This document shows positions 1,960 through 26,936 of a DNA stretch of 64,000 nt, piece after piece. Every line of letters starts with the position of its first letter. The stretch's first letter is position 1. The position numbers were made by a program, and so were the translations under genes. The stretch is from a candidate division FCPU426 bacterium (GTDB taxonomy: Bacteria; Oederibacteriota; Muellerivitia; Muellerivitales; Muellerivitaceae). Under the pieces are notes generated by a model, which saw only the letters and a program-made list of their open reading frames with translations, had not been told where the DNA came from and made no database searches. The DNA lies in assembly GCA_030041545.1 (NCBI GenBank), contig JASHNQ010000046.1:1-64000 (forward strand). Reading direction: 5' to 3'.

Positions 1960-4900
1960 ATGACCCCCGTGGAAAGCCCCGCTTCCGCTCATACGGATCA
2001 AAGCTCCTCCCCTTTCTACCAGCTTCTCCAACAAATCCCCCTCCAATGTTACGAGCAAGAACGCTTCCTCCAATCCGAGCTTTTGGGCGTACAGGTCTAC
2101 CCCGAGAAAGGCATCCTGGTTTTGGGCCTGAAGATGGCCGCCGCCGTTACTCCGGATACCTACTTCAATGTTTCCCGTTATTTAAAGGAAAGCCTGCCCA
2201 ACGTGAACCGAGTGGTCCTGGACGTGCACTACGCGCCCGGCTCCATCAGCCTTTCCGACTACCTCGCCGCCCACGAAAGGGACCTTCTTTTTTGCCTGAT
2301 GGAGGAAGCGGACGTGGCGGAAGGCTGGTTTTCCCATTACCGGATGGAAGTGAAGGAAGGGGAGCTTTCCTTCCAGGTCCCCCATGAGCTGGCCCGCCAG
2401 CAGTTGGAACGCAAGCAATGCGATAAGGTCCTGAAGGACCTTTTGAAGATCCGTTGGGGCGGGGAAGTGAAAGTTAGTCTTTTCATCAATCCCGATATCC
2501 TGCCTCAGGCGCCGGTCGTTGAGGAAAAACCGGCGGAGTTCAACGCGGCCCCCAAGGCGCCCGCCTCGGTGGTGATTTACGGCCGAAAGATCGCCGAGGA
2601 ACCCCAGTCCATGGCCGTGACGGAGGAATGCAACGGCTTCGTGGCCCAGGGTGAGGTCATCAGCTTCGAGCAAATCCAGACCCGAAGCGGCCGGTTCCTG
2701 ATCAAGATGACCATCACCGACTACGCCGATTCCCTGGACGTGCGCCTTTTCCTGGAAGGGGACAAAAAATTGGCCGCCCCGTTGAAGGAGAGGGACTGGG
2801 TGAAGGTGCGGGGGGACCTGCGTCCCGACAAGTATTCCCACGACGAACTCACCTTGTCGGCCAGGGACATCCTGAAGGTGCCTCCGCCGGAGAACCGCAA
2901 GGACACGGCCGCGGAAAAACGCGTGGAACTGCACTGCCATACCCAGATGAGCCGCATGGACGGCCTTTCCAAGATCGACCGGCTCATCGAGAGGGCGGCC
3001 CAATGGGGCCACCCGGCTATCGCCATCACGGACCACGGCGTGGTGCAGGCCTACCCGGAGGCGCGCGCGGCGGCCAAGAAGCACGGCATCAAGCTGATCC
3101 TGGGCATGGAAGGCTACCTGGTGGATGAGTTCAAGCGCGAAAAGGGCATGGCCATCTACCACATCATCCTCCTGGTCAAGAACAAGGCGGGCCTCAAGAA
3201 CCTCTACCAGTTGGTTTCCGAGAGCCACCTCAAGTACTTCTACAAGCGGCCGCTCATCCCCAAGGCCCTTTTGGAGGAGCACCGGGAGGGCCTCATCGTG
3301 GGATCGGCCTGCGAACAAGGCGAAGTCTGGCAGCACTTGTTGAGGAGGGACAAACCCGTCGAGGAAGTGGCGCGGTTCTACGACTATATCGAAATCCAGC
3401 CCTGCGCCAACAACGAGTTCATGATCGGGGACGGCACGGTTAAGGACATGGAGGAACTCCAGCGATTGACCCGTCACCTCTATGAAACGGGCAAGAAGTT
3501 GGGCAAGCCGGTTTTGGCCACGGGGGATTCCCATTTCATCGACCCCCAGGACGACGTGTACCGCAAGATCCTGCACGCCGGCATGGGCTACGGGGTCGAG
3601 CGCCAGGCGCCCCTTTACTTCAAGACCACGGACGAGCTCAAGCGGGATTTCGGTTATTTCGGGGAGGAACTGTCCCACGAGTTGGTGGTGACCAACCCCC
3701 GGAAAGTGGCCGACATGGTGGAGGACGTGGAACCCCTTCCCACCAAGACCCTCTCGCCCATGTGGGAAGGCGCGGATGAGTTGCTTCGGGAAACCGCCAC
3801 GCAACGGGCCCATGAGCTTTACGGGGACCCCCTGCCGGATTTCATCGAGAAGCGCCTGCAAAAGGAACTCAACGCCATCATCAACAACAAGTTCGCCACG
3901 CTTTACGTGATCGCCATGAAACTGGTGAAAAAGTCCCTTTCGGATGGTTACATCGTGGGAAGCCGTGGCTCGGTGGGCAGTTCCTTCGTGGCTTTCTTGG
4001 CGGGCATCACGGAGGTCAACCCCCTCCCACCCCATTACCGCTGCGGAAACTGCCGCGCCCACGAGTTCCCCCAAAACCCCTCCTCCATGGCGGGCGTGGA
4101 CCTGCCGGAAAAGAAATGCGCCCCATGCGGCAAGGACATGGTACGGGACGGCTTTTCCATCGCCTTCGAGGTCTTCATGGGCTTCAAGGGCGACAAGATG
4201 CCGGACATCGACCTGAATTTCTCCGGCGAGTACCAGCACGAAGCCCACAAGTACGTGGAGGAACTTTTCGGCAAGAACCACTGCTTTAGAGCCGGCACCA
4301 TTTCAGCGGTCAAGGACAAGATCGCCTTCGGCTTCGTGAAGAAATTCGTGGAGGAGGCCGGCCGCACGGCCCGCAACGCGGAACTCAACCGGCTGGTCAA
4401 GGGCTGCTCGGGCGTTTCCAAGACCACGGGCCAGCACCCGGGCGGCATCGTCATCCTGCCCAAGGAGTTCGAGATCACCGACGTGTGCCCGGTGCAGTAC
4501 CCGGCCGACAACAAGGAAGGGGACGTCATCACCACTCATTTCGACTACGACAGCATGCACGACTGCCTGGTGAAGCTGGACATCCTGGGCCATGACAACC
4601 CCACCAGCCTCAAGCGCCTGGAAACCATGACGGGCGTGTCCGCCACCGGTATCCCCTTGAACGATCCCAAGACCATGAGCCTTTTTTCCGGGGTCCAGGC
4701 CCTGAGCCTCAAGGAAAGGATCGAGAAGGACCTCGGGACCCTCGGCGTGCCCGAGTTCGGCACCCAGTTCGCCATGGACATGCTGCGCGACACCAAGCCC
4801 ACCAAGTTCGAACACCTGGTGCGGCTCTCCGGCCTGGCCCACGGCACCGACGTGTGGCTGGGCAACGCGCAGGATCTCATCCAGAAAAAAACCGCCACCC

Positions 4901-5652
4901 TCTCCACCGTTATTTCCACCCGCGACGACATGCTCAACGACCTGGTGGCCAAGGGCATGGACGAGGCCTTGGCCTTCAAGATCATGGAGGACGTGCGCAA
5001 GGGCAAGGGGCTCAAGCCCGAGCACGAACAGGCCATGACGGCGGCCAATGCGCCCCATTGGTACATCGACAGCTGCAAGAAGATCAAGTATATCTTCCCC
5101 AAGGCCCACGCCGTGGCCTATTGCATCATGAGTTTCCGCATCGCTTACTTCAAGGTGCACCATCCGCTGGCCTTTTACGCCGACTTTTTCACGAATAAGT
5201 CCTTCGGGTTCGACGCCACGGTCGCCTGCGGCGGCCTGGGACGGGTCAGGGACCGCATCAAGCTCATCCGGTCGCTGGAAAAGCCAACCCACAAGGAGCT
5301 GGACGAAGCCTCGGTTTTGGAAGTCGTTGAGGAAGTCTACGCCAGGGGTTTCCAGTTCCTGCCGGTGGACCTATACCAATCCGACGCTCACCAATTCCGA
5401 ATCGAGGACGGCGCCCCTTCGGGCGGCTCTTCGAGCCCCTCAGGGCAGGCTTTAAGGCCGCCCCTGGTAGGCCTGCCGGGCCTGGGCGAGACCGCCGCGG
5501 ATTCCATTTCCGAGGAGCGCAAGAAGGGCCCCTTCGGGTCCGTGGAGGACCTGCAGGACCAATGCGGGGTGAACAAGAACGTGGTGGAAATCCTCAAGGC
5601 CCACGGATGCCTTAGGGAAATTCCCGATTCCAAACAGGTTTCCCTGTTTTAA
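1960..5652 (+). CDS. polC: DNA polymerase III alpha subunit, PolC-type, lacking the 3'-5' exonuclease domain
   Basis: A replicative C-family DNA polymerase of 1230 residues. Order: N-terminal domain (~20-180), OB fold (~225-305), PHP domain from RVELHCH near residue 323, zinc-finger cysteines CGNC and CAPC in the palm region (~690-720), palm signature PDIDLNFSGEYQ with catalytic aspartates near 749/751, then TTGQHPGG, a helix-hairpin-helix and the typical end VSLF. The signature and the OB-before-PHP order are specific to PolC, not DnaE. In usual PolC (~1430 aa) a DnaQ-like exonuclease is inserted in PHP after GMExYLV; here that point runs on within about eight residues to YHIILLVKN, so the exonuclease is cleanly absent. 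PHP metal-ligand motifs (HCH, TDHG, DSHF) remain. GGAGG at 1951-1955 fixes the ATG. Residues ~1150-1167 (SGGSSSPSGQ) are an in-frame low-complexity insertion. Confidence 0.95.
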   Translation: MTPVESPASAHTDQSSSPFYQLLQQIPLQCYEQERFLQSELLGVQVYPEKGILVLGLKMAAAVTPDTYFNVSRYLKESLPNVNRVVLDVHYAPGSISLSDYLAAHERDLLFCLMEEADVAEGWFSHYRMEVKEGELSFQVPHELARQQLERKQCDKVLKDLLKIRWGGEVKVSLFINPDILPQAPVVEEKPAEFNAAPKAPASVVIYGRKIAEEPQSMAVTEECNGFVAQGEVISFEQIQTRSGRFLIKMTITDYADSLDVRLFLEGDKKLAAPLKERDWVKVRGDLRPDKYSHDELTLSARDILKVPPPENRKDTAAEKRVELHCHTQMSRMDGLSKIDRLIERAAQWGHPAIAITDHGVVQAYPEARAAAKKHGIKLILGMEGYLVDEFKREKGMAIYHIILLVKNKAGLKNLYQLVSESHLKYFYKRPLIPKALLEEHREGLIVGSACEQGEVWQHLLRRDKPVEEVARFYDYIEIQPCANNEFMIGDGTVKDMEELQRLTRHLYETGKKLGKPVLATGDSHFIDPQDDVYRKILHAGMGYGVERQAPLYFKTTDELKRDFGYFGEELSHELVVTNPRKVADMVEDVEPLPTKTLSPMWEGADELLRETATQRAHELYGDPLPDFIEKRLQKELNAIINNKFATLYVIAMKLVKKSLSDGYIVGSRGSVGSSFVAFLAGITEVNPLPPHYRCGNCRAHEFPQNPSSMAGVDLPEKKCAPCGKDMVRDGFSIAFEVFMGFKGDKMPDIDLNFSGEYQHEAHKYVEELFGKNHCFRAGTISAVKDKIAFGFVKKFVEEAGRTARNAELNRLVKGCSGVSKTTGQHPGGIVILPKEFEITDVCPVQYPADNKEGDVITTHFDYDSMHDCLVKLDILGHDNPTSLKRLETMTGVSATGIPLNDPKTMSLFSGVQALSLKERIEKDLGTLGVPEFGTQFAMDMLRDTKPTKFEHLVRLSGLAHGTDVWLGNAQDLIQKKTATLSTVISTRDDMLNDLVAKGMDEALAFKIMEDVRKGKGLKPEHEQAMTAANAPHWYIDSCKKIKYIFPKAHAVAYCIMSFRIAYFKVHHPLAFYADFFTNKSFGFDATVACGGLGRVRDRIKLIRSLEKPTHKELDEASVLEVVEEVYARGFQFLPVDLYQSDAHQFRIEDGAPSGGSSSPSGQALRPPLVGLPGLGETAADSISEERKKGPFGSVEDLQDQCGVNKNVVEILKAHGCLREIPDSKQVSLF

Positions 5653-5703: not shown

Positions 5704-7776
5704 TTGAAACCGCTTTTCATCCGGTTATTCCCCGTTTCCGTGCTTCTGACCGGCCTGGGGACGGCGCCTGCCCGGGCCCTCCTTCCCATTTCCCATTACC
5801 ACGACTTGGTGGCGGGGGAAGGCGCGCAAGGCTACCGCGATGGGGCTTTTTTTTCCGCTTTGTTCAATTTCCCGCAGGGGTTGGCAGTGGACCCCCAAGG
5901 CCGGTTCCTTTACGTCGCGGACCGGGACAACAACTGCATCCGGGTAATCGACCTGGATAAGGCCAACCAGGTGAAGACCCTCGCGGGAAGCCCCACGGCC
6001 GGATTCGCCGACGGCCCTTTCTCCAGGGCTTCCTTCAACCATCCGACCGCCTTGGCCTTCCTGCCGGGAAACCGCCTGGCGATTTTTGACAGCGGCAACC
6101 AGCGTTTGCGCCTGGCGGATCTTTCCCGCAAGACCCTATCCACCCTGGCGGGCAACGGTTCGGAGGGTTTTGGCGACGGCAAGGCCCTTCAAACCCCCGT
6201 GAGCGGAGTCTGGAACTTGGTTTACGACCTGGCGGACGGGGCCCTCTACTTCACCCAGCCGGAGGATGGCGCCCTGAGGAAACTGGATCTGCTCCACCGC
6301 CGCATCACCTCCGCCTTTCGGCAGAACCCGAGGATTCCCAAGCCCCAAGCCTTGTGCCTTTTCCAAGGCCATGTTTGCGTGGCGGGGGACGGTCTCAAGG
6401 CCCCGGTGTGCCTGATGGAACGGGATACGGAAGGGCGCGTCAACCTGCGGCCCATTGGAACGGGAAGCCATGTGCTTGCCCTTGGAAGCTCGCAAGGGTC
6501 GCTTTACGCGGTGCAAGCGGGCAGCCTGGCGCCCTGGGCGAGGGTCTTCCCGCCGCCGCCCCTGGGAGGGGATTCCCTCTTAAAGTCCGTTTGGGGAGGG
6601 GGCCTGGGATATGCCCCCAACGAGAGCGACCCCTTTCTTTGGCCCGACCAGTCCGACCAGGCCGGCCTGGTCGCCGACCCGAGGCAGCCTGGAAGATTTT
6701 TCGTCTCTTCCGGCTACCTGCAGTCGGTCGTGGGCGTGAAGGATTATTCCTTCGCCGAACTGATCCGGGGCAATACGGTCAACCGGGAAGGCCTGCACGA
6801 TTTCGAGTACCCCCTCTCCAAGCCGCCGCATACCTTCCGCCTATTGGTCGTCGGAAACTCCTATCCCTTCCACCAGTCGACCCAGGACGACCGGCGCTGG
6901 GGATGGCCGGGCGGGGGCGGTTTTGGAAACCGCATGGAAAGCATGCCCAAACGGCTGGAGCTGTTCCTGAACACGCAAGCCGCACTCCGGGACGTTCCCT
7001 GGCATTACGAGGTTTTGACCCTCAGCGCGCCCGGGCCTTCCTTTGTCTGGCTGCGCTACCAGGCGCCCGCCGTCATCCGGGAATACGGCGTCGACTTGGT
7101 GCTTTATTTCGTCGAATCCTCTTCCAAGGAAATCAACCGGACCTTCAAGCTCTATTTTGAAAGGCCCCTGACGACGGAAGGCATCCCGCAGGCCCAGGAG
7201 GACCCCGAATACCCCCTCAAGCCCTGCGAGGAAAAGGTTCCCGGCGGGCTGCCCGGCGACTTTTACCGCCATGTTTCCACCAAGGGATGGGCGAGCCCCC
7301 TGCCCAATCACCAGTTTGCCTTCGCGGACGCCGTCACCCTCCTCGGGGATCCCGTGACGAAGGCACAGGTGGAAGCCATGGCCGGCAAGCCCCTGGAACG
7401 GTTCCAGGAGGAGTTGAAAAAAATACAGGCTCAGGACCGCCGTCCGGTCGGGTTCGAGGTGTGCTTCCTCCCAATGAGGGACGCCGATAATTCGCGGTTC
7501 CACCTGAACCATTTGGAGGAACTCCGACACTTCTGGGAGGATACCTCCCGCAGGATCCACGCGCCTTTCCTGGACCTGACCGCGCCCATGGTGGCGCTGG
7601 AGAAAACCTTCTGGCCCGTGGACGAGTCCGGTGGCGGTCAGCATTTCGACGCCAACGGGCATTTGTGGTTCGCCTATCTCCTGGCCCAGGAACTTATCGA
7701 CCAGCGCTTAATCCCTTTCACCCCGATTCAGGAGAAGGCCGGAGAGGAAACCAGCCCCGACAAGCTGAAGAATTAA
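5704..7776 (+). CDS. Secreted NHL-repeat beta-propeller fused to an SGNH-hydrolase-like domain
   Basis: A 690-residue protein starting at TTG 5704 with a signal peptide (cleavage after TAPARA). Residues ~35-330 hold NHL-type blades (GLAVDPQGRFLYVADRDNN, then FADGPFSRASFNHPTALAF), which usually bind or scaffold rather than catalyse. From about residue 378 a second domain begins with FRLLVVGNSYPF; the GNS replaces the GDS of SGNH esterases. Near residue 650 there is DANGH before a final helix, a candidate Asp/His pair although the spacing is one residue longer than the usual DxxH. This resembles carbohydrate O-acetyl-esterase or O-acyltransferase helper proteins of the SGNH fold, exported to periplasm or surface. 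Substrate is unknown. It lies 50 bp after polC on the same strand; terminator 7928-7958 follows. Confidence 0.65.
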   Translation: MKPLFIRLFPVSVLLTGLGTAPARALLPISHYHDLVAGEGAQGYRDGAFFSALFNFPQGLAVDPQGRFLYVADRDNNCIRVIDLDKANQVKTLAGSPTAGFADGPFSRASFNHPTALAFLPGNRLAIFDSGNQRLRLADLSRKTLSTLAGNGSEGFGDGKALQTPVSGVWNLVYDLADGALYFTQPEDGALRKLDLLHRRITSAFRQNPRIPKPQALCLFQGHVCVAGDGLKAPVCLMERDTEGRVNLRPIGTGSHVLALGSSQGSLYAVQAGSLAPWARVFPPPPLGGDSLLKSVWGGGLGYAPNESDPFLWPDQSDQAGLVADPRQPGRFFVSSGYLQSVVGVKDYSFAELIRGNTVNREGLHDFEYPLSKPPHTFRLLVVGNSYPFHQSTQDDRRWGWPGGGGFGNRMESMPKRLELFLNTQAALRDVPWHYEVLTLSAPGPSFVWLRYQAPAVIREYGVDLVLYFVESSSKEINRTFKLYFERPLTTEGIPQAQEDPEYPLKPCEEKVPGGLPGDFYRHVSTKGWASPLPNHQFAFADAVTLLGDPVTKAQVEAMAGKPLERFQEELKKIQAQDRRPVGFEVCFLPMRDADNSRFHLNHLEELRHFWEDTSRRIHAPFLDLTAPMVALEKTFWPVDESGGGQHFDANGHLWFAYLLAQELIDQRLIPFTPIQEKAGEETSPDKLKN

Positions 7777-7984: not shown

Positions 7985-8153
7985 GACAAGGTTTGATGCA
8001 CCCGTCCGACGGCCGAAAGGCCGTTTGTCATTTGTACCCTTATTTTTTTCTTTGAAATATCGGGCGAGGCCCGGGAAAGGCAATAAGGGCGACGCAGTTC
8101 CCAATATTGGGGCCGAAGGCCCCTTTCAATTTTGGGGAACTGAGGGGGCAAAA
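7985..8153 (+). promoter_or_regulatory. rimP operon leader with two hairpins
   Basis: This untranslated stretch holds a GAAA-tetraloop hairpin at 8009-8024 (ACGGCC-GAAA-GGCCGT) and a long two-part hairpin at 8096-8141: outer arms AGTTCCCAATATTG and CAATTTTGGGGAACT (one bulge) enclosing GGGGCC-GAA-GGCCCC. The hairpin ends exactly where the rimP Shine-Dalgarno GAGGGGG begins (8142). A forward open frame runs through it from 8025, but that would give RimP a 43-residue extension not expected in the family, so I read it as leader. A role in translational control is inference. Confidence 0.5.
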
Positions 8154-8627
8154 ATGGGGCTTCTCGACGAAACGAAAACAACCCAGCTTCGGTCTTTGGC
8201 CGAAGGAGTGGTCAAGGACAACTTCCTGGAGCTTTTCGACTTTAAAGTTAGGCCCCAGGGTAAAAAGCTGGTTTTGACCGTTGTTTTGGATAAGAAAAGC
8301 GGCCCCGTGAGCCTGGATGAGTGCACGGCGGTGAGCCGGGACCTGGAAAAGAAGCTGGACGACTTGGACTTGATCGAGACGTCCTACCTCCTGGAGGTTT
8401 CCTCACCAGGGTTGGACCGGCCTTTAAGGAGCCTGGAGGACTGCGAAAGGTTCAAGGGCCGAAGGGCCCAAATGACGCTGGCCGAGCCCCTGGAAGGCCA
8501 GGTGAACCTGGAGGGGCGGCTGGGCGAGATCCAAGAAGGCAAAGTGGAAATTTGGACCGGCAAGGAGAAGACCCTTTGGGTGCCCTTCTCGATGGTGAAG
8601 AACGCGAAACTAGTGGTGGAACTATAA
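8154..8627 (+). CDS. rimP: Ribosome maturation factor RimP
   Basis: A 157-residue protein needed for maturation of the 30S subunit, acting in the cytoplasm with S12. The N-terminal domain carries the SPGLDRPLRSLEDCERFKG signature near residues 82-101, preceded by the LTVVLDKK strand and the DECTAVSRDLEKKLD helix; the C-terminal SH3-like domain (LEGRLGEIQEGKVEIW) completes the family length of ~150. The start is ATG 8154, supported by GAGGGGG seven bases upstream. First gene of the rimP-nusA-infB operon, the usual bacterial order. Confidence 0.93.
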   Translation: MGLLDETKTTQLRSLAEGVVKDNFLELFDFKVRPQGKKLVLTVVLDKKSGPVSLDECTAVSRDLEKKLDDLDLIETSYLLEVSSPGLDRPLRSLEDCERFKGRRAQMTLAEPLEGQVNLEGRLGEIQEGKVEIWTGKEKTLWVPFSMVKNAKLVVEL

Positions 8628-8752: not shown

Positions 8753-10080
<1,328 letters not shown>

Positions 10081-10084
<4 letters not shown>

Positions 10085-12369
10085 CGAAACGCCTTTTTGA
10101 ATTCGCCAAGGAACTGGGCCTGCCCAGCAAGGACGTCCTGGAACGCTGCAAAAAACTGGGCCACAACATCCCCAGCCAGCTGACCGTGGTGGACGAAAAG
10201 ATCCAGTCCGACGTACGGCGGGACCTGGGGCTGGCGGACCTGCATTCGGCCTCCGCCGCGTCCACCGCGCCGGTTTCCACCGTGGCCCGCCCGGCCGCGG
10301 CCAAGGCACCGGTCGTCCCACCGTCCCCCTCCGCCACCGCGGCCCGCACCATGGTGAAGCCCGCCACGGGCCTTTTTGCGCCCACCGCCACCTATCCGAG
10401 CCTGAAACCCGCTTCCAAGCCCGCCGCCTCCAAGCCGGCTACGGCTCTGCGGAAAACCGGGCCCTCCGCCAAGCCGTCTTCCCTTAAAGCCGGCGGACAT
10501 GGGTTGGCGGCTGGACGGCCAAAAAACGTGGCCTCCGTGGTCCGGGAAACCCCCGAGGAAAAGCCCCCAGCCGAGGAGACGGGCGGGGAGGGCGCCCCCG
10601 CCACCCCCAAAGTCCTCACCCGGATCAAGGTCACCGAGGGCATCACGGTGGCCGAGCTGGCCCAGAAGCTCAACGTGAAACCCGGCGTGCTCATCAAGGA
10701 ACTTTTGGATTTGAAAATCCTGGCCACCATCAACCAGAGGCTCGACATGACGGTGGCCGAAACCCTGGCCTCGGCCCACGACGCCGAGGTGGAGGTGGTG
10801 CCCCTTTACGGGGCCGAAATGTTCCAGGACACGCCCGACGACCCCAAGGACCTGAAGCCCCGACCGCCGGTGGTCACCATCATGGGGCACGTGGATCACG
10901 GCAAGACCCTGCTTTTGGACGCCATCCGCAAGACCAAGGTGGCCGAGGGCGAGGCCGGCGGCATCACCCAGCACATTGGCGCCTATCAAGTGAAGCACGA
11001 AAAGGGCACTATTACCTTCCTGGACACGCCGGGCCACGAGGCCTTCACCCTCATGCGCGCGCGCGGCGCCAAGGCCACGGACATCGTGGTGCTGGTGGTG
11101 GCGGCCGACGACGGGGTCATGCCCCAAACGCTGGAGGCCATCGACCACGCCAAGGAAGCCAAGGTGCCCATCATCGTGGCCCTCAACAAGATCGACAAGC
11201 CCGAGGCCAACCTCGACCGGGTGAAAACCCAGCTGGCCGAGCGGGGCCTGTCGCCCGAGGCCTGGGGCGGGACCACCATTTTCGTGGAAGTCTCGGCCAA
11301 GAAGCGCCTCAACCTGGATAAGTTGCTGGAAATGATCCTTTTGCAAGCCGAAGTCCTGGAACTCAAGGCCAACCCGGACCGTTCGCCGAAGGGCGTGGTG
11401 CTGGAAGCCCGCCTGGACAAGGGCCGCGGGCCGGTGGCCACCTTCCTGGTGGAAAAAGGGACACTCAAGATCGGCGACAACATTATCGCGGGTTCCACCT
11501 ACGGCCGCGTCAAGGCCCTGCAGGACGACCTGGGCAAACCCGTCAAATCCGCCCCCCCCGCCATGCCCGTGGAAGTGCTGGGCCTCTCGGATGTTCCCCA
11601 GGCGGGTGACGTGTTTTACGGCGTGGAGGACCCCAAGGTGGCCCGCGAGATCGCCAGCCGCCGCACCGAGGCCCTGAAGGACAACCGCCTGGTGGGAGCC
11701 ATGAAGCATATCACGCTGGACAACCTCTTCGACCAGATCAAGGAAGGGCAGATCAAGGAACTCAAAGTTATCGTCAAAGCCGACGTGCAGGGCTCGGTCG
11801 AGGCCTTGACCCAGTCCCTGGAGAAGCTTTCCACCGAAAAAGTGGCGCTCAAGGTCATCCACAGCGGCGCGGGCAACATCGTCAACTCCGACATCCTTTT
11901 GGCCTCCGCCTCCAACGCCATCATGGTGGGCTTCAACGTCAAGGCGGACTCCAACGCCAAGGCTACGGCCGAAAAAGAGGACGTGGACGTCCGGGTTTAC
12001 AAGATCATCTACGATGCGGTGGAAGACGTGCGCAAGGCCATGGAAGGGCTCTTGGAGCCCACCTACCGGCAGGTTTCCATCGGCCGCGCGGAAGTGCGCC
12101 AGCTCTTCAACACGCCCAAGGGCACCATCGCGGGTTCCATGGTGACCTCGGGCAAGATCACCAGCAAGGCCAAGGTCAAAGTGCTGCGCGTGGAAGAGGT
12201 CGTTTACGAGGGGGCCCTCACGTCCCTGAGGCGCTTCAAGGACGACGTCAAGGAAGTCAACAACGGGTTCGAGTGCGGCATCGGTATCGAGGGTTTCGAG
12301 GACATCCAGGTGGGAGACCAGCTGGAGGCCTACGTGCTGGAGGCCGTGGCACAGAAGCTGGAAGACTAA
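10081..12369 (+). CDS. infB: Translation initiation factor IF-2
   Basis: A 762-residue GTPase that brings initiator tRNA to the 30S subunit and promotes subunit joining. The N-terminal three-helix domain ([20 protein letters not shown]) is followed by a Pro/Ala-rich linker (~55-170), the IF2_N domain ([20 protein letters not shown]), then the G domain with G1 GHVDHGKT near residue 269, G3 DTPGHEAF and G4 NKID, and C-terminal beta-barrel and initiator-tRNA-binding domains. The linker is shorter than in enterobacteria. Overlaps nusA by four bases and is followed by the DUF503 gene. Confidence 0.97.
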
Positions 12370-12837: not shown

Positions 12838-13206
12838 ATGTCTTTCAAACGGGCGGACAGGGTTTCGGAGGCCATTAAACGCGAAGTGAGCCTCATGCTG
12901 GGGCGGGAAGTGAAGGATCCGGGCATCCACTTTGTGACCGTGACGGCCGTGGAAACCACCGACGATTTGCGCCATGCAAAGGTATTTGTATCGGTTTTGG
13001 GCGACGAAAAAACGCGACAAGAATCCATGGATGGATTGGAACGAGCCAAGGGATTTTTGAGAAGTGAATTGGGACACCGGCTTCAATTACGCTATACTCC
13101 TGAGATTCAATTCCGGTTGGACAAATCCCTGGACCACGCCATGAAGATCAAGGGCCTCCTGAACGGTTTGAAGGCCGTCGAGGAAAAAAACGATGATGAA
13201 GCTTAA
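12838..13206 (+). CDS. rbfA: Ribosome-binding factor A
   Basis: A 122-residue KH-fold protein that binds the 5' helix of 16S rRNA during late 30S maturation. The core is RADRVSEAIKREVSLMLGRE, then DPGIHFVTVTAVETTDDLRH (KH strand and turn) and the end RYTPEIQFRLDKSLDHAMKI, all family hallmarks, at the usual length. ATG 12838 is chosen over GTG 12826 because it gives the conserved beginning. Its 3' end overlaps the next gene by 14 bases. Confidence 0.92.
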   Translation: MSFKRADRVSEAIKREVSLMLGREVKDPGIHFVTVTAVETTDDLRHAKVFVSVLGDEKTRQESMDGLERAKGFLRSELGHRLQLRYTPEIQFRLDKSLDHAMKIKGLLNGLKAVEEKNDDEA

Positions 13207-14200
13207 GCCTAAAACGATTTTAAAATCATCCGTCAAACGCAAGGCCAATCCTTTCCGCGACGTGGCCAAGCTCATCAAAGCCCGCCAGACCTTCCTCATT
13301 ACCACCCACGTGAACCCGGACGGGGACGGATTGGGGGCCCAATCCGCCCTTTTTATGGCACTCCGCAAGCTGGGCAAAAAAGTGCAGGTCGTCAACCATG
13401 ACCCCCTCCCCAAGCGGTTCAGTTACCTGGCTTTCACGCCTTACTACCAAACCAGCGACAAACTGCCGGCTCACGAGGTATGCTTCGTCCTGGACGCCGG
13501 GGATTTCACGCGAATCCGCGAGGATGTCCGGCGTGAGGAATTCAGCACGCTTGTCAATATCGACCACCATTATTCCAACAACCATTACGGGGACCACAAC
13601 TTGGTCATGCCGGAAGCCGCCGCCACCGGCGAGGTGGTATACCGCCTCATTAAGGCCCTCAAGGTGAAGGTGGACAAGAGCATCGCCGAGGGGGTTTACA
13701 CCTCCATCGTGACCGATACCGGGAGGTTCCGCTATTCCAATACGACCTCCCATATCTTCCGGCTGGCCGCCGAGTTGGAGGAAGCCGGAGCGGATATTTG
13801 CCATATCAGCGAGCACATTTTCGGGGACACCAGCCGGGAAGCCATGGAGCTGAACCGCCTGGCCCTGGCCACCGTCCAAACCTATGACGGAGGCTCCATC
13901 GGCTCCATGAGCCTCACGCAAAGCGATTTCCTCAAGTCCGGCGCCTCCGACGACGACACCGAAAACCTCATCAACGTGGTGCGTAACCTGGATACGGTGA
14001 AGATCGCCATTTTCCTCAAGGAAAGGCCCGATGGGAAGGTCAAGATTTCGCTGCGCTCCAAGAACGGCGTCAACGTGGCCGAGGTGGCCAAACGCTTCAA
14101 GGGCGGAGGCCACGCCTACGCGGCCGGCGCCGTGCTGCCGGGCCCCCTCGAAAAAGCCCTCCAGGAAGTGCTGAAAGCCTGTCAGTCGGCCCTTCGTTAA
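13193..14200 (+). CDS. nrnA: DHH/DHHA1 phosphoesterase (NrnA-like oligoribonuclease / pAp phosphatase)
   Basis: A 335-residue cytoplasmic phosphoesterase. The DHH domain shows THVNPDGDGLGAQ (metal-binding Asp residues), DAGDFTRI, NIDHHYSN (the DHH motif) and TDTGRFRYSNT; the DHHA1 substrate domain ends with FKGGGHAYAAGA. NrnA enzymes degrade nano-RNAs and dephosphorylate 3'-phosphoadenosine 5'-phosphate. The position between rbfA and truB is common. Start ATG 13193 overlaps rbfA; the first ~20 residues are basic and longer than usual, so ATG 13196 is equally possible. Confidence 0.88.
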   Translation: MMKLKPKTILKSSVKRKANPFRDVAKLIKARQTFLITTHVNPDGDGLGAQSALFMALRKLGKKVQVVNHDPLPKRFSYLAFTPYYQTSDKLPAHEVCFVLDAGDFTRIREDVRREEFSTLVNIDHHYSNNHYGDHNLVMPEAAATGEVVYRLIKALKVKVDKSIAEGVYTSIVTDTGRFRYSNTTSHIFRLAAELEEAGADICHISEHIFGDTSREAMELNRLALATVQTYDGGSIGSMSLTQSDFLKSGASDDDTENLINVVRNLDTVKIAIFLKERPDGKVKISLRSKNGVNVAEVAKRFKGGGHAYAAGAVLPGPLEKALQEVLKACQSALR

Positions 14201-24529: not shown

Positions 24530-24701
24530 AATTAAGCCGCCCCGCGCCGCGAAAGAAACGGGGCCGCTGGATCGGGTGAGGAAAGGGAACCGGGATGGGC
24601 CTTCCAATCGAGCATCAAATCATCGCGGTTGGAAATTGAAGGACGGCATGCCCCCGTCCGCGGCCGGCCGGGGCGCCGCTAAGACAAAACAGGATAAAGA
24701 T

Positions 24702-26936
24702 ATGAAACTCAAAAGCATGGCTTCAACCGCATTAGTCCTCTGCGCCACCCTGTTTTGGGCGGGAGGGGATGTGCAAGCCCTTGCGGCGGACGCCGCGGGG
24801 GAAACGCCCCCCGGGGAGGCCTCCTCCAACACCCTTTCAGCTTCCGCAACCCCGAGCTCGGCGGTCGTCACCCTGCCGGAGGTCACCGTGCTGGGGGATT
24901 CGGAGGCGCTCTGGCAGAAGAACCAGGCGCTGGATGAGGCCCGCGATAAGAACCTGCTGCCCCCCATCGGCAATACCACTTACAACATGGGCCAGGAGGC
25001 CCTCCAGGCCCTGCCGCAAGGCGATAACACGCCGATCGACAAGGTCCTCCTCCAGGCACCCGGCGTGTCCTACGATTCGGCCATCAGTAACCCGGATTTC
25101 CACGTCCGCAACGAGTACGCGAACGTCCAATACCGCGTCAACGGCATCCAGCTCCCGGACGGGGTCTCGGCGCTGGGGCCGATCCTGGAAACGGGTTTTA
25201 TCGGGAACCTCAACCTGCTCGACGGCTCCCTGCCCGCCCAATACGGGCTTCGCACCGCGGGGGTGGTGGACATCACCACGAAAACCGAGTTCGATCCGGG
25301 CGGGAACCTGGACCTTTACGGCGGCACATGGGAGACCCTCAGCCCCACCCTTGAATACGGCGGGGGCAGCGGCCGGACGCAGTATTTCTTCACTGGAAGC
25401 TACCTTCAAAGCCAGCAAGGCCTGGAGAACGCCATGCCGACGGCGGACCCGGTCCACGACGATACGACCCAGGGCCGGTTCTTCGGGTATGGATCAACCC
25501 TTTTCGGGGACTCCACCCGGCTGACCTACATGGCCGGCGCCTTCATCGGCCAGTTCCAGATCCCGGACATCGCCGGCCAGACGCCCCTGGGGGATTACGG
25601 GCCCAGCACCCTGGATTCGACCCTCGTCAACGACAACGAAACCGACCAGGCTTACTTCGGCATCGCGGCCCTGCAGACGCATAACGACGACCTGGACACC
25701 CAGGCGTCGGTTTACACGCGTTACGCCTCCATCCACTATGTTCCGGACGTATACGATGAACTCGTCTTCAACGACGAGGCCTCGGACGTTTCCCGCCAAA
25801 GCCTCCTGGGCGGATTGCAATTCGACGCCGCCCAACGCCTGGGCGACGGCCACACCCTCCGGGGGGGTATCGTGTTCAACCTGGAGAACACATGGGTGGA
25901 CGACCTCTCGACCGTGTTGACCCTGGACTCGAACGGGAATCCCGAGGCCAATCCCGAGACCATCAACGACTCCACCACCGAGCTCGGCTGGACCGGGGGG
26001 GTTTATGTCCAGGACGAGTGGCGCTTGGGCGGCGACCTGACCGTGAACGGGGGCCTGCGCTTCGACCTGATGGACGAGTTCGTCTCCGCCGACCAGCTCA
26101 GCCCGCGGCTGGCCCTGGTCTACAAGCCGGGCGGCGGCACGACCTTTCACGCCGGGGTCTCGCGGTATTTCACCCCGCCCATGCAGTCCCAAGCCACGCC
26201 CAACAACCTCGCCTTGTTCCAGGGCACTACCCAGCAGCCGCAGACTCCGCTGGACGACCCGGTGGAACCGGAGCGGGCCTGGTATTTCGACGCGGGCCTG
26301 GACCAGGCGCTCTTGCCCGGGCTCACGGCCGGCCTGGACGCCTATGACAAGGTCTCGACCGACACCCTGGACGACGCCGACTTCGGGTCCTCCGTGGTGC
26401 TCGACCAGTTCAATTACGCCAACGGCTACAGCCAGGGCCTTGAGTTCAAGGCCGACTACGCCCAAGGGGGCTTCCGGGCCTACGGCAACCTGTCCTACGA
26501 GATCACCCGGGTCGAGGACGTGGTCTCGAACCAATACCTTATCGACGGTCCCGCCTACAGCTACAGCCCGCCCGACGAACTGGCTTACCTCGCCGACCAT
26601 TACGTCCCTTCCTCCGACGCCCAGCTGGTCACCTCTTCTTTCGGCGCCTCCTACCGCTGGAGCGGCCTGCTGGCCAGCGTGGACGGCATCTACGGCAGCG
26701 GGTTGGCCGCGGGTTTCGCCAACGAGCAGAGCGAACCCGCCTATACGGAGTTCAACTCGGCGCTGGCCTGGTCCTTCGACCCCTGGCGCGACCCGGAACC
26801 ATTGACACTGCGCTTGAGCGCCGTCAATATCTTTGACACCATTTACCTGTTGCGCGGCGGCACGGGTATCGGCGAGTTCGCCCCCCAGTACGGGCCGCGC
26901 CGGGGGCTGTTCGCCGACCTATCCCAAAAGTTCTAG
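24702..26936 (+). CDS. TonB-dependent outer-membrane receptor, Fur-regulated
   Basis: A 744-residue receptor for uptake of an iron complex or similar ligand. Signal peptide MKLKSMASTALVLCATLFWA (cut after VQALA), TonB-box-like TLPEVTVLG near residue 60, plug domain (LLQAPGVSYDSAI, VQYRVNGIQLPDG, AGVVDITTK) and a beta-barrel ending LFADLSQKF with the terminal Phe required for barrel insertion. Start ATG 24702 has AGGATAAAG upstream; an in-frame ATG at 24576 would give 42 extra non-signal residues. The Fur box points to iron. exbB-exbD-tonB follow on the same strand and would energise it. Confidence 0.92.
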   Translation: MKLKSMASTALVLCATLFWAGGDVQALAADAAGETPPGEASSNTLSASATPSSAVVTLPEVTVLGDSEALWQKNQALDEARDKNLLPPIGNTTYNMGQEALQALPQGDNTPIDKVLLQAPGVSYDSAISNPDFHVRNEYANVQYRVNGIQLPDGVSALGPILETGFIGNLNLLDGSLPAQYGLRTAGVVDITTKTEFDPGGNLDLYGGTWETLSPTLEYGGGSGRTQYFFTGSYLQSQQGLENAMPTADPVHDDTTQGRFFGYGSTLFGDSTRLTYMAGAFIGQFQIPDIAGQTPLGDYGPSTLDSTLVNDNETDQAYFGIAALQTHNDDLDTQASVYTRYASIHYVPDVYDELVFNDEASDVSRQSLLGGLQFDAAQRLGDGHTLRGGIVFNLENTWVDDLSTVLTLDSNGNPEANPETINDSTTELGWTGGVYVQDEWRLGGDLTVNGGLRFDLMDEFVSADQLSPRLALVYKPGGGTTFHAGVSRYFTPPMQSQATPNNLALFQGTTQQPQTPLDDPVEPERAWYFDAGLDQALLPGLTAGLDAYDKVSTDTLDDADFGSSVVLDQFNYANGYSQGLEFKADYAQGGFRAYGNLSYEITRVEDVVSNQYLIDGPAYSYSPPDELAYLADHYVPSSDAQLVTSSFGASYRWSGLLASVDGIYGSGLAAGFANEQSEPAYTEFNSALAWSFDPWRDPEPLTLRLSAVNIFDTIYLLRGGTGIGEFAPQYGPRRGLFADLSQKF

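Follow-up and report, generated by a model that had tools for sequence, protein, structure and literature searches.

In Bacillus subtilis, the DnaQ-like exonuclease (Exo) of PolC proofreads for DnaE3 (PMC12926913), and in Mycobacterium tuberculosis DnaE1 the PHP domain is the proofreader, acting as a 3'-5' exonuclease; in the Geobacillus kaustophilus PolC one PHP ligand is mutated and this activity is absent (both PMC5636811). PolCs without Exo were reported in 2013 as 6% of all PolCs, nearly all of them from Clostridia and Negativicutes, and the question was raised whether they serve as the main replicase or as an enzyme for special situations, the accompanying DnaE1 having all the features of a full replicase (Timinskas et al. 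2013, PMC3919608). Here we describe a polC gene in a 64,000-nucleotide stretch of contig JASHNQ010000046.1 from a candidate division FCPU426 bacterium (the whole stretch is called the window below). Its product is an Exo-less PolC with a complete PHP metal site, and the partner DnaE of the same genome has lost the corresponding site.

The window protein scored well above the PolC cut-offs of NCBIfam NF001688 (1389 bits, cut-off 873) and TIGR01405 (1260 bits, cut-off 1043), and skipped the Exo part of the PolC profile, its C-terminal stretch beginning at profile position 611. Pfam assigned the domains OB, PHP, DNA_pol3_alpha, finger and HHH_6, while DNA_pol3_a_NII gave a weak match (E=0.006) below the cut-off. 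As in canonical PolCs of the B. subtilis, G. kaustophilus and Staphylococcus aureus type, the order is OB-PHP-Pol3-HhH, with the palm aspartate triad (DDD) and a C-terminal QxxLF clamp motif. Among the features that define PolC membership, scores over both profile cut-offs, OB before PHP, Pol3, tandem HhH, the clamp motif and palm DDD are thus present. In contrast to the canonical enzymes, the DnaQ-like Exo in the PHP loop, a hallmark though not a universal feature of PolC, is missing, which places the protein in the Exo-less subset. Both elements of the definition of that subset (Timinskas 2013), lack of Exo and a DnaE1 partner, were found.

Sixteen residues, a DnaE-like length, separate PHP ligand five (E384) from ligand six (H401), and in the alignment the interval of the Exo insertion spans 10 residues, compared with ~170-210 in every aligned PolC with Exo (Exo+). 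In phmmer comparisons, the G. kaustophilus PolC (3f2b) aligned end to end with residues 219-1230, whereas the alignment to a 1474-aa PolC (9qpc_A) broke at the Exo insertion, residues 132-390 pairing with 170-431 and 391-1230 with 634-1471. A Pfam scan of the whole protein (E<=1) detected no RNase_T domain, either within PHP, which the preliminary description had read as continuous, or elsewhere in the chain. That description had also called the joint clean rather than frameshifted. Indeed, the open reading frame is intact and the same architecture recurred in 30/30 distinct alignable PolCs of the phylum. These observations rule out an artefact of assembly, frameshift or annotation; nothing was found in its favour, and we regard its chance as negligible.

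All nine PHP ligands, which had likewise been described as kept, are present in the window PolC (H325 H327 D358 H359 E384 H401 C451 D523 H525; HHDHEHCDH). This is the nine-ligand, three-metal constellation of the M. tuberculosis DnaE1-type proofreading exonuclease, complete where the G. kaustophilus PolC has one ligand changed (PMC5636811). An AlphaFold2 model of OB plus PHP (residues 219-604; mean predicted local distance difference test score 91.1, predicted template modelling score 0.85) matched G. kaustophilus PolC (3f2c; Z 43.2, root-mean-square deviation 3.6 over 363 residues) and Taq Pol III alpha (2hpi; Z 31.2, root-mean-square deviation 2.1 over 257). With 5 partial rows dropped, the ligands were intact in 71/71 Exo-less PolCs, including 41/41 from clostridia, as against 84/96 Exo+ PolCs (Fisher p 0.0013, a value that ignores kinship). 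Within the Bacilli/Mycoplasma-type sample, ligands were eroded in 6/34 Exo+ PolCs, in some nearly completely (ARDLTETDR, SRDHTDGER).

The partner polymerase shows the opposite pattern. The DnaE of the window genome is of DnaE1 type (NF004226, 1385 bits, cut-off 1002), yet its PHP ligands read HHDKEPGDR. To place this reading, we use a sample of 45 genomes of the phylum divided into families f1-f16; the window genome belongs to f1, which comprises 8 genomes. The DnaE site was destroyed in 8/8 f1 genomes, four reading HHDKEPGDR and the others HHDREPGGR, HHDKEPGAR, HHDKESGDR and HHDKERGNH. The clamp motif was retained in all eight, as was the palm DDD in the DnaEs of the window genome (G000) and G024, the two f1 rows among 11 DnaEs aligned. 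Identities to the window genome within f1 ranged from 94.4/93.4 down to 76.5/72.1% for PolC/DnaE (6 pairs), the PolCs of G024 and G029 lying at 77-81%; conservation of PolC thus equals or exceeds that of DnaE. Beyond f1, the DnaE site was also destroyed in f10 (1/1, G022; HHDTEHGHF), a decay separate from that in f1, while f2 carried one change (HHDKEHCDH) and f15 a conservative D-to-E replacement in 3/3. Other readable main DnaEs of the phylum were intact; the exceptions were the rows of G002 and G043, which are truncated, and a supernumerary DnaE of G017 (HHDTQY-CR).

The Exo-less PolCs of Clostridia and Negativicutes (PMC3919608) resemble the window protein in their continuous PHP domain, missing DnaQ insertion and DnaE1 partner. 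In 28 Exo-less clostridial genomes, 27 of them with a DnaE match, the main DnaE site was intact wherever covered, except in G242 (the sole DnaE found, HHDHEHCNH); one row lacked the first two positions, two did not cover the site, and three second DnaEs read HHDHEHCNH. An RNase_T protein was present in 22 of these 28 genomes. In f1, by contrast, the DnaE site is destroyed and the only RNase_T protein is an oligoribonuclease.

This last point emerged from a search for other proofreaders. RNase_T (PF00929) matches occurred in 26/45 genomes of the phylum sample and were lacking in families f3, f6, f7, f9, f10, f13 and f14. The nine genomes of f1 and f2 each contained exactly one PF00929 protein, in 9/9 an oligoribonuclease over the NCBIfam cut-off. 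No stand-alone DnaQ or epsilon subunit was found in the window genome, a metagenome-assembled genome 98.5% complete, whose sole PF00929 match was this oligoribonuclease. Elsewhere, the PolC-less families f4 and f5 encode a stand-alone DnaQ resembling PolC-Exo (4 of 9 classified; the PolC profile matches 9/9 at ~406-624), and DnaQ-BRCT-like proteins below the NF004844 cut-off occur in f8, f11, f12, f15 (1 of 3) and f16. RNase_H_2 proteins were found in 32/45 genomes, yet in just 2/8 of f1. The preliminary description had left proofreading to PHP itself or to a separate protein and had pointed to dnaQ and dnaE as the genes to look for. No dnaQ turned up and dnaE is present with a destroyed PHP site, so that of the two options the PolC PHP becomes the leading candidate.

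Three side observations concern these nucleases. The window genome carries both an NrnA-like DHH protein (window 13193-14200, below the NCBIfam cut-off) and the Orn-type oligoribonuclease (L001:1462-2016). The f4/f5 stand-alone DnaQ (L088-L096) measures 190-275 aa and never co-occurs with PolC in the 45 genomes. The two f3 genomes (G001, G002; L217, L254) are DnaE-only, with neither a PolC nor an RNase_T match and with DnaE PHP ligands intact where readable; judged from these genes, they are candidates for PHP-only proofreading.

We give a probability of about 60% to the reading that the window protein is a genuine, complete replicative PolC that lacks Exo and proofreads with its own PHP domain, which in f1 would be the sole proofreading site of the replisome. 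The observations behind it are the architecture, the conserved ligands, the decay of the DnaE site and the lack of a recognisable DnaQ. The PolC PHP would most likely be a three-metal-site 3'-5' exonuclease like those of M. tuberculosis and Thermus DnaE. It would correct the synthesis of PolC itself, acting as the main replicase, and perhaps DnaE errors in trans, much as the B. subtilis PolC-Exo serves DnaE3. Because the DnaE site is destroyed in 8/8 genomes and the only RNase_T protein is an oligoribonuclease, the PolC PHP appears from sequence to be the one proofreading site detected as intact in the two replicative polymerases of f1.

The resemblance to known systems is partial. Bacilli likewise combine one proofreading-competent PolC, as the window PolC would be, with a DnaE whose PHP is dead, but in f1 the retained site would be PHP rather than DnaQ, and the DnaE is of DnaE1 type. 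The nine-ligand three-metal site is shared with the PHP exonucleases of M. tuberculosis DnaE1 and Thermus Pol III alpha. These are DnaE1 enzymes, and the portions of the literature available to us contained no PHP exonuclease activity in PolC. The f1 combination of an Exo-less PolC with a putatively live PHP, a DnaE1 with a dead one and no DnaQ differs from the systems summarised in the parts of PMC3919608 and PMC12926913 at hand, although a similar combination elsewhere may stand in Fig. 3A of PMC12926913.

Several points weigh against this reading. Proofreading by the PolC PHP is a prediction from sequence and from precedent in other enzymes. Intact ligands are not peculiar to Exo-less PolCs, as most Exo+ forms keep them too, and the association between Exo and PHP state was not significant in tree-independent pairs (6 pairs, PHP state differing 0.1 on average), for which reason we do not take it as proof. 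Both facts would fit a PHP site kept for structure or for another hydrolase role, with no proofreading nuclease at all and fidelity resting on base selection and mismatch repair. We consider this unlikely, if still plausible: the DnaE ligands are gone throughout f1 while the remaining protein is conserved, so the site is not required for the fold there, and none of the 71 Exo-less PolCs has lost its ligands. In most other PolC-bearing families of the phylum the DnaE PHP is intact, and a DnaQ-BRCT-like protein occurs in some of them, which limits the claim of a sole proofreader to f1, with f10 similar. The same intactness, found also in nearly all site-covering main DnaEs of Exo-less clostridial genomes, speaks for the role that Timinskas et al. 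(PMC3919608) considered in Clostridia, in which Exo-less PolC is secondary and DnaE1 carries out bulk replication; moreover, no PolC match was found in 37/149 clostridial genomes or in f3-f5 (11/45). We hold such a division of labour to be quite improbable, as f1 combines a destroyed DnaE PHP and no detected DnaQ with an intact, clamp-motif-bearing PolC, whereas a bulk replicase consisting of DnaE alone would be expected to retain the reverse.

Finally, the 98.5%-complete genome may miss a gene, and divergent exonucleases would escape detection. An unrecognised or borrowed exonuclease could thus act in trans, for instance the oligoribonuclease, an RNase_H_2-type protein, a PolX-type PHP or a member of another family. 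The window genome does carry, besides its one Orn, one weak RNase_H_2 protein (273 aa with a zinc-ribbon-like start, C104:52453-52932; L266:825-1646), and stand-alone DnaQ or DnaQ-BRCT-like proteins exist in the families of the phylum named above. However, the only other RNase_H_2 match in f1, that of G029, sits in a 1113-aa frame, and every RNase_T match of f1 and f2 is an oligoribonuclease, so that we judge help in trans to be a slim prospect.

Exo-less PolC proved widespread. In the phylum sample, PolC scored over the cut-off in 32/45 genomes, with fragments in two more and none in the 11 genomes of f3-f5, and 30/30 distinct PolCs with a readable joint were Exo-less (2 partial rows dropped). 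PolC matches were found in 149/149 genomes of a Bacilli/Mycoplasma-type phylum sample, the great majority spanning the Exo region, and in 112/149 of a clostridial phylum sample. Judged by match start and frame length, about 66 of the 107 scorable clostridial PolCs were Exo-less and 41 were Exo+; the other 5 were too incomplete for scoring. The architecture is therefore a known minority form that is now seen to be widespread.

On a tree of FCPU426-type and Bacillota/Mycoplasmatota PolCs (77 rows; no record named as Thermotogota, Fusobacteriota or Negativicutes among those sampled), the Exo state changed at least 9 times, and a single origin of Exo-less PolC was rejected (approximately unbiased (AU) test, p 7.8e-54; LG+G4, 37 rows). 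The PolCs of the phylum formed one group with support 100 under the C20 model without outgroup. FastTree with a DnaE outgroup divided them in two, which, given the C20 result, is probably long-branch pull. In the DnaE-rooted C20 tree all Bacillota PolCs, Exo+ and Exo-less, formed one clade with the phylum outside (Shimodaira-Hasegawa-like approximate likelihood ratio test 95); placing the root on the Bacilli-type Exo+ branch, however, gave a slightly better score (17 log units, AU 0.79). The preliminary description had spoken of a loss of the exonuclease; its absence stands, whereas loss does not follow from an ambiguous root, and Exo was either lost by the phylum or never there. That the phylum never had it, its PolC keeping a pre-insertion architecture with PHP as the original proofreader and, after DnaE decay, the sole genome guard in f1, seems to us doubtful.

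The closest PolC records came from candidate division FCPU426 (94, 78, 76, 79, 62 and 48% identity), followed by one from Firestonebacteria (47%) and two from vaguely or otherwise titled metagenome-assembled genomes, the rest being Bacillota and one Mycoplasmatota. An Omp85 match in the window genome (E=1.5e-55) together with a TonB-dependent receptor at 24576-26936 of the window indicates a diderm host, as had been supposed. Negativicutes are diderm as well. A PolC without exonuclease in a diderm is thus correctly observed but less novel than the preliminary description implied, Exo-less PolC having been known since 2013, including from Negativicutes. New are the fixed state of this architecture throughout a candidate phylum of diderms and the decay of the partner DnaE PHP site in f1; literature searches returned no publication on the PolC of this phylum, one of them listing, as far as the listing shows, only community surveys. 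Downstream of polC lie rimP, nusA and infB, a neighbourhood familiar from Firmicutes, here broken by a 690-aa NHL-repeat protein (5704-7776) between polC and rimP.

Table. Coordinates of the PolC, its domains and related genes (window positions unless a contig is given).
Feature	Coordinates	Strand	Remarks
polC, Exo-less PolC-type DNA polymerase III alpha subunit	1960..5652	+	1230 aa; reading frame uninterrupted
N-terminal region, residues 1-218	1960..2613	+	weak PolC N-terminus II match, E=0.006
OB-fold domain, residues 230-304	2647..2871	+	Pfam; within the AlphaFold2-modelled part
Continuous PHP domain	2926..3534	+	Pfam 323-473, extended to last ligand H525
16-residue loop, residues 385-400	3112..3159	+	site of the ~190-aa DnaQ-like insertion in Exo+ PolC
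Palm catalytic aspartates D749, D751, D874 (span)	4204..4581	+	alignment
Tandem helix-hairpin-helix domain, residues 1130-1225	5347..5634	+	Pfam HHH_6
C-terminal beta-clamp-binding motif QVSLF (QxxLF)	5635..5649	+	sequence motif
rimP	8025..8627	+	
nusA	8753..10084	+	
infB	10081..12369	+	
DnaE of the window genome	G000:C24:58210-61254 (L240, L211)		polymerase and clamp motifs kept, PHP site destroyed

With its DnaE1 PHP lost, no recognisable DnaQ and the PolC PHP kept, f1 offers a natural test of the role of Exo-less PolC, as main replicase or as special enzyme, and the window PolC is a ready substrate for assaying PolC-PHP exonuclease activity without a confounding DnaQ domain. If the proposed reading is true, a replisome could run with PHP as its sole corrector, PolC being the partner of high fidelity, in contrast to Bacilli with their DnaQ-based arrangement.

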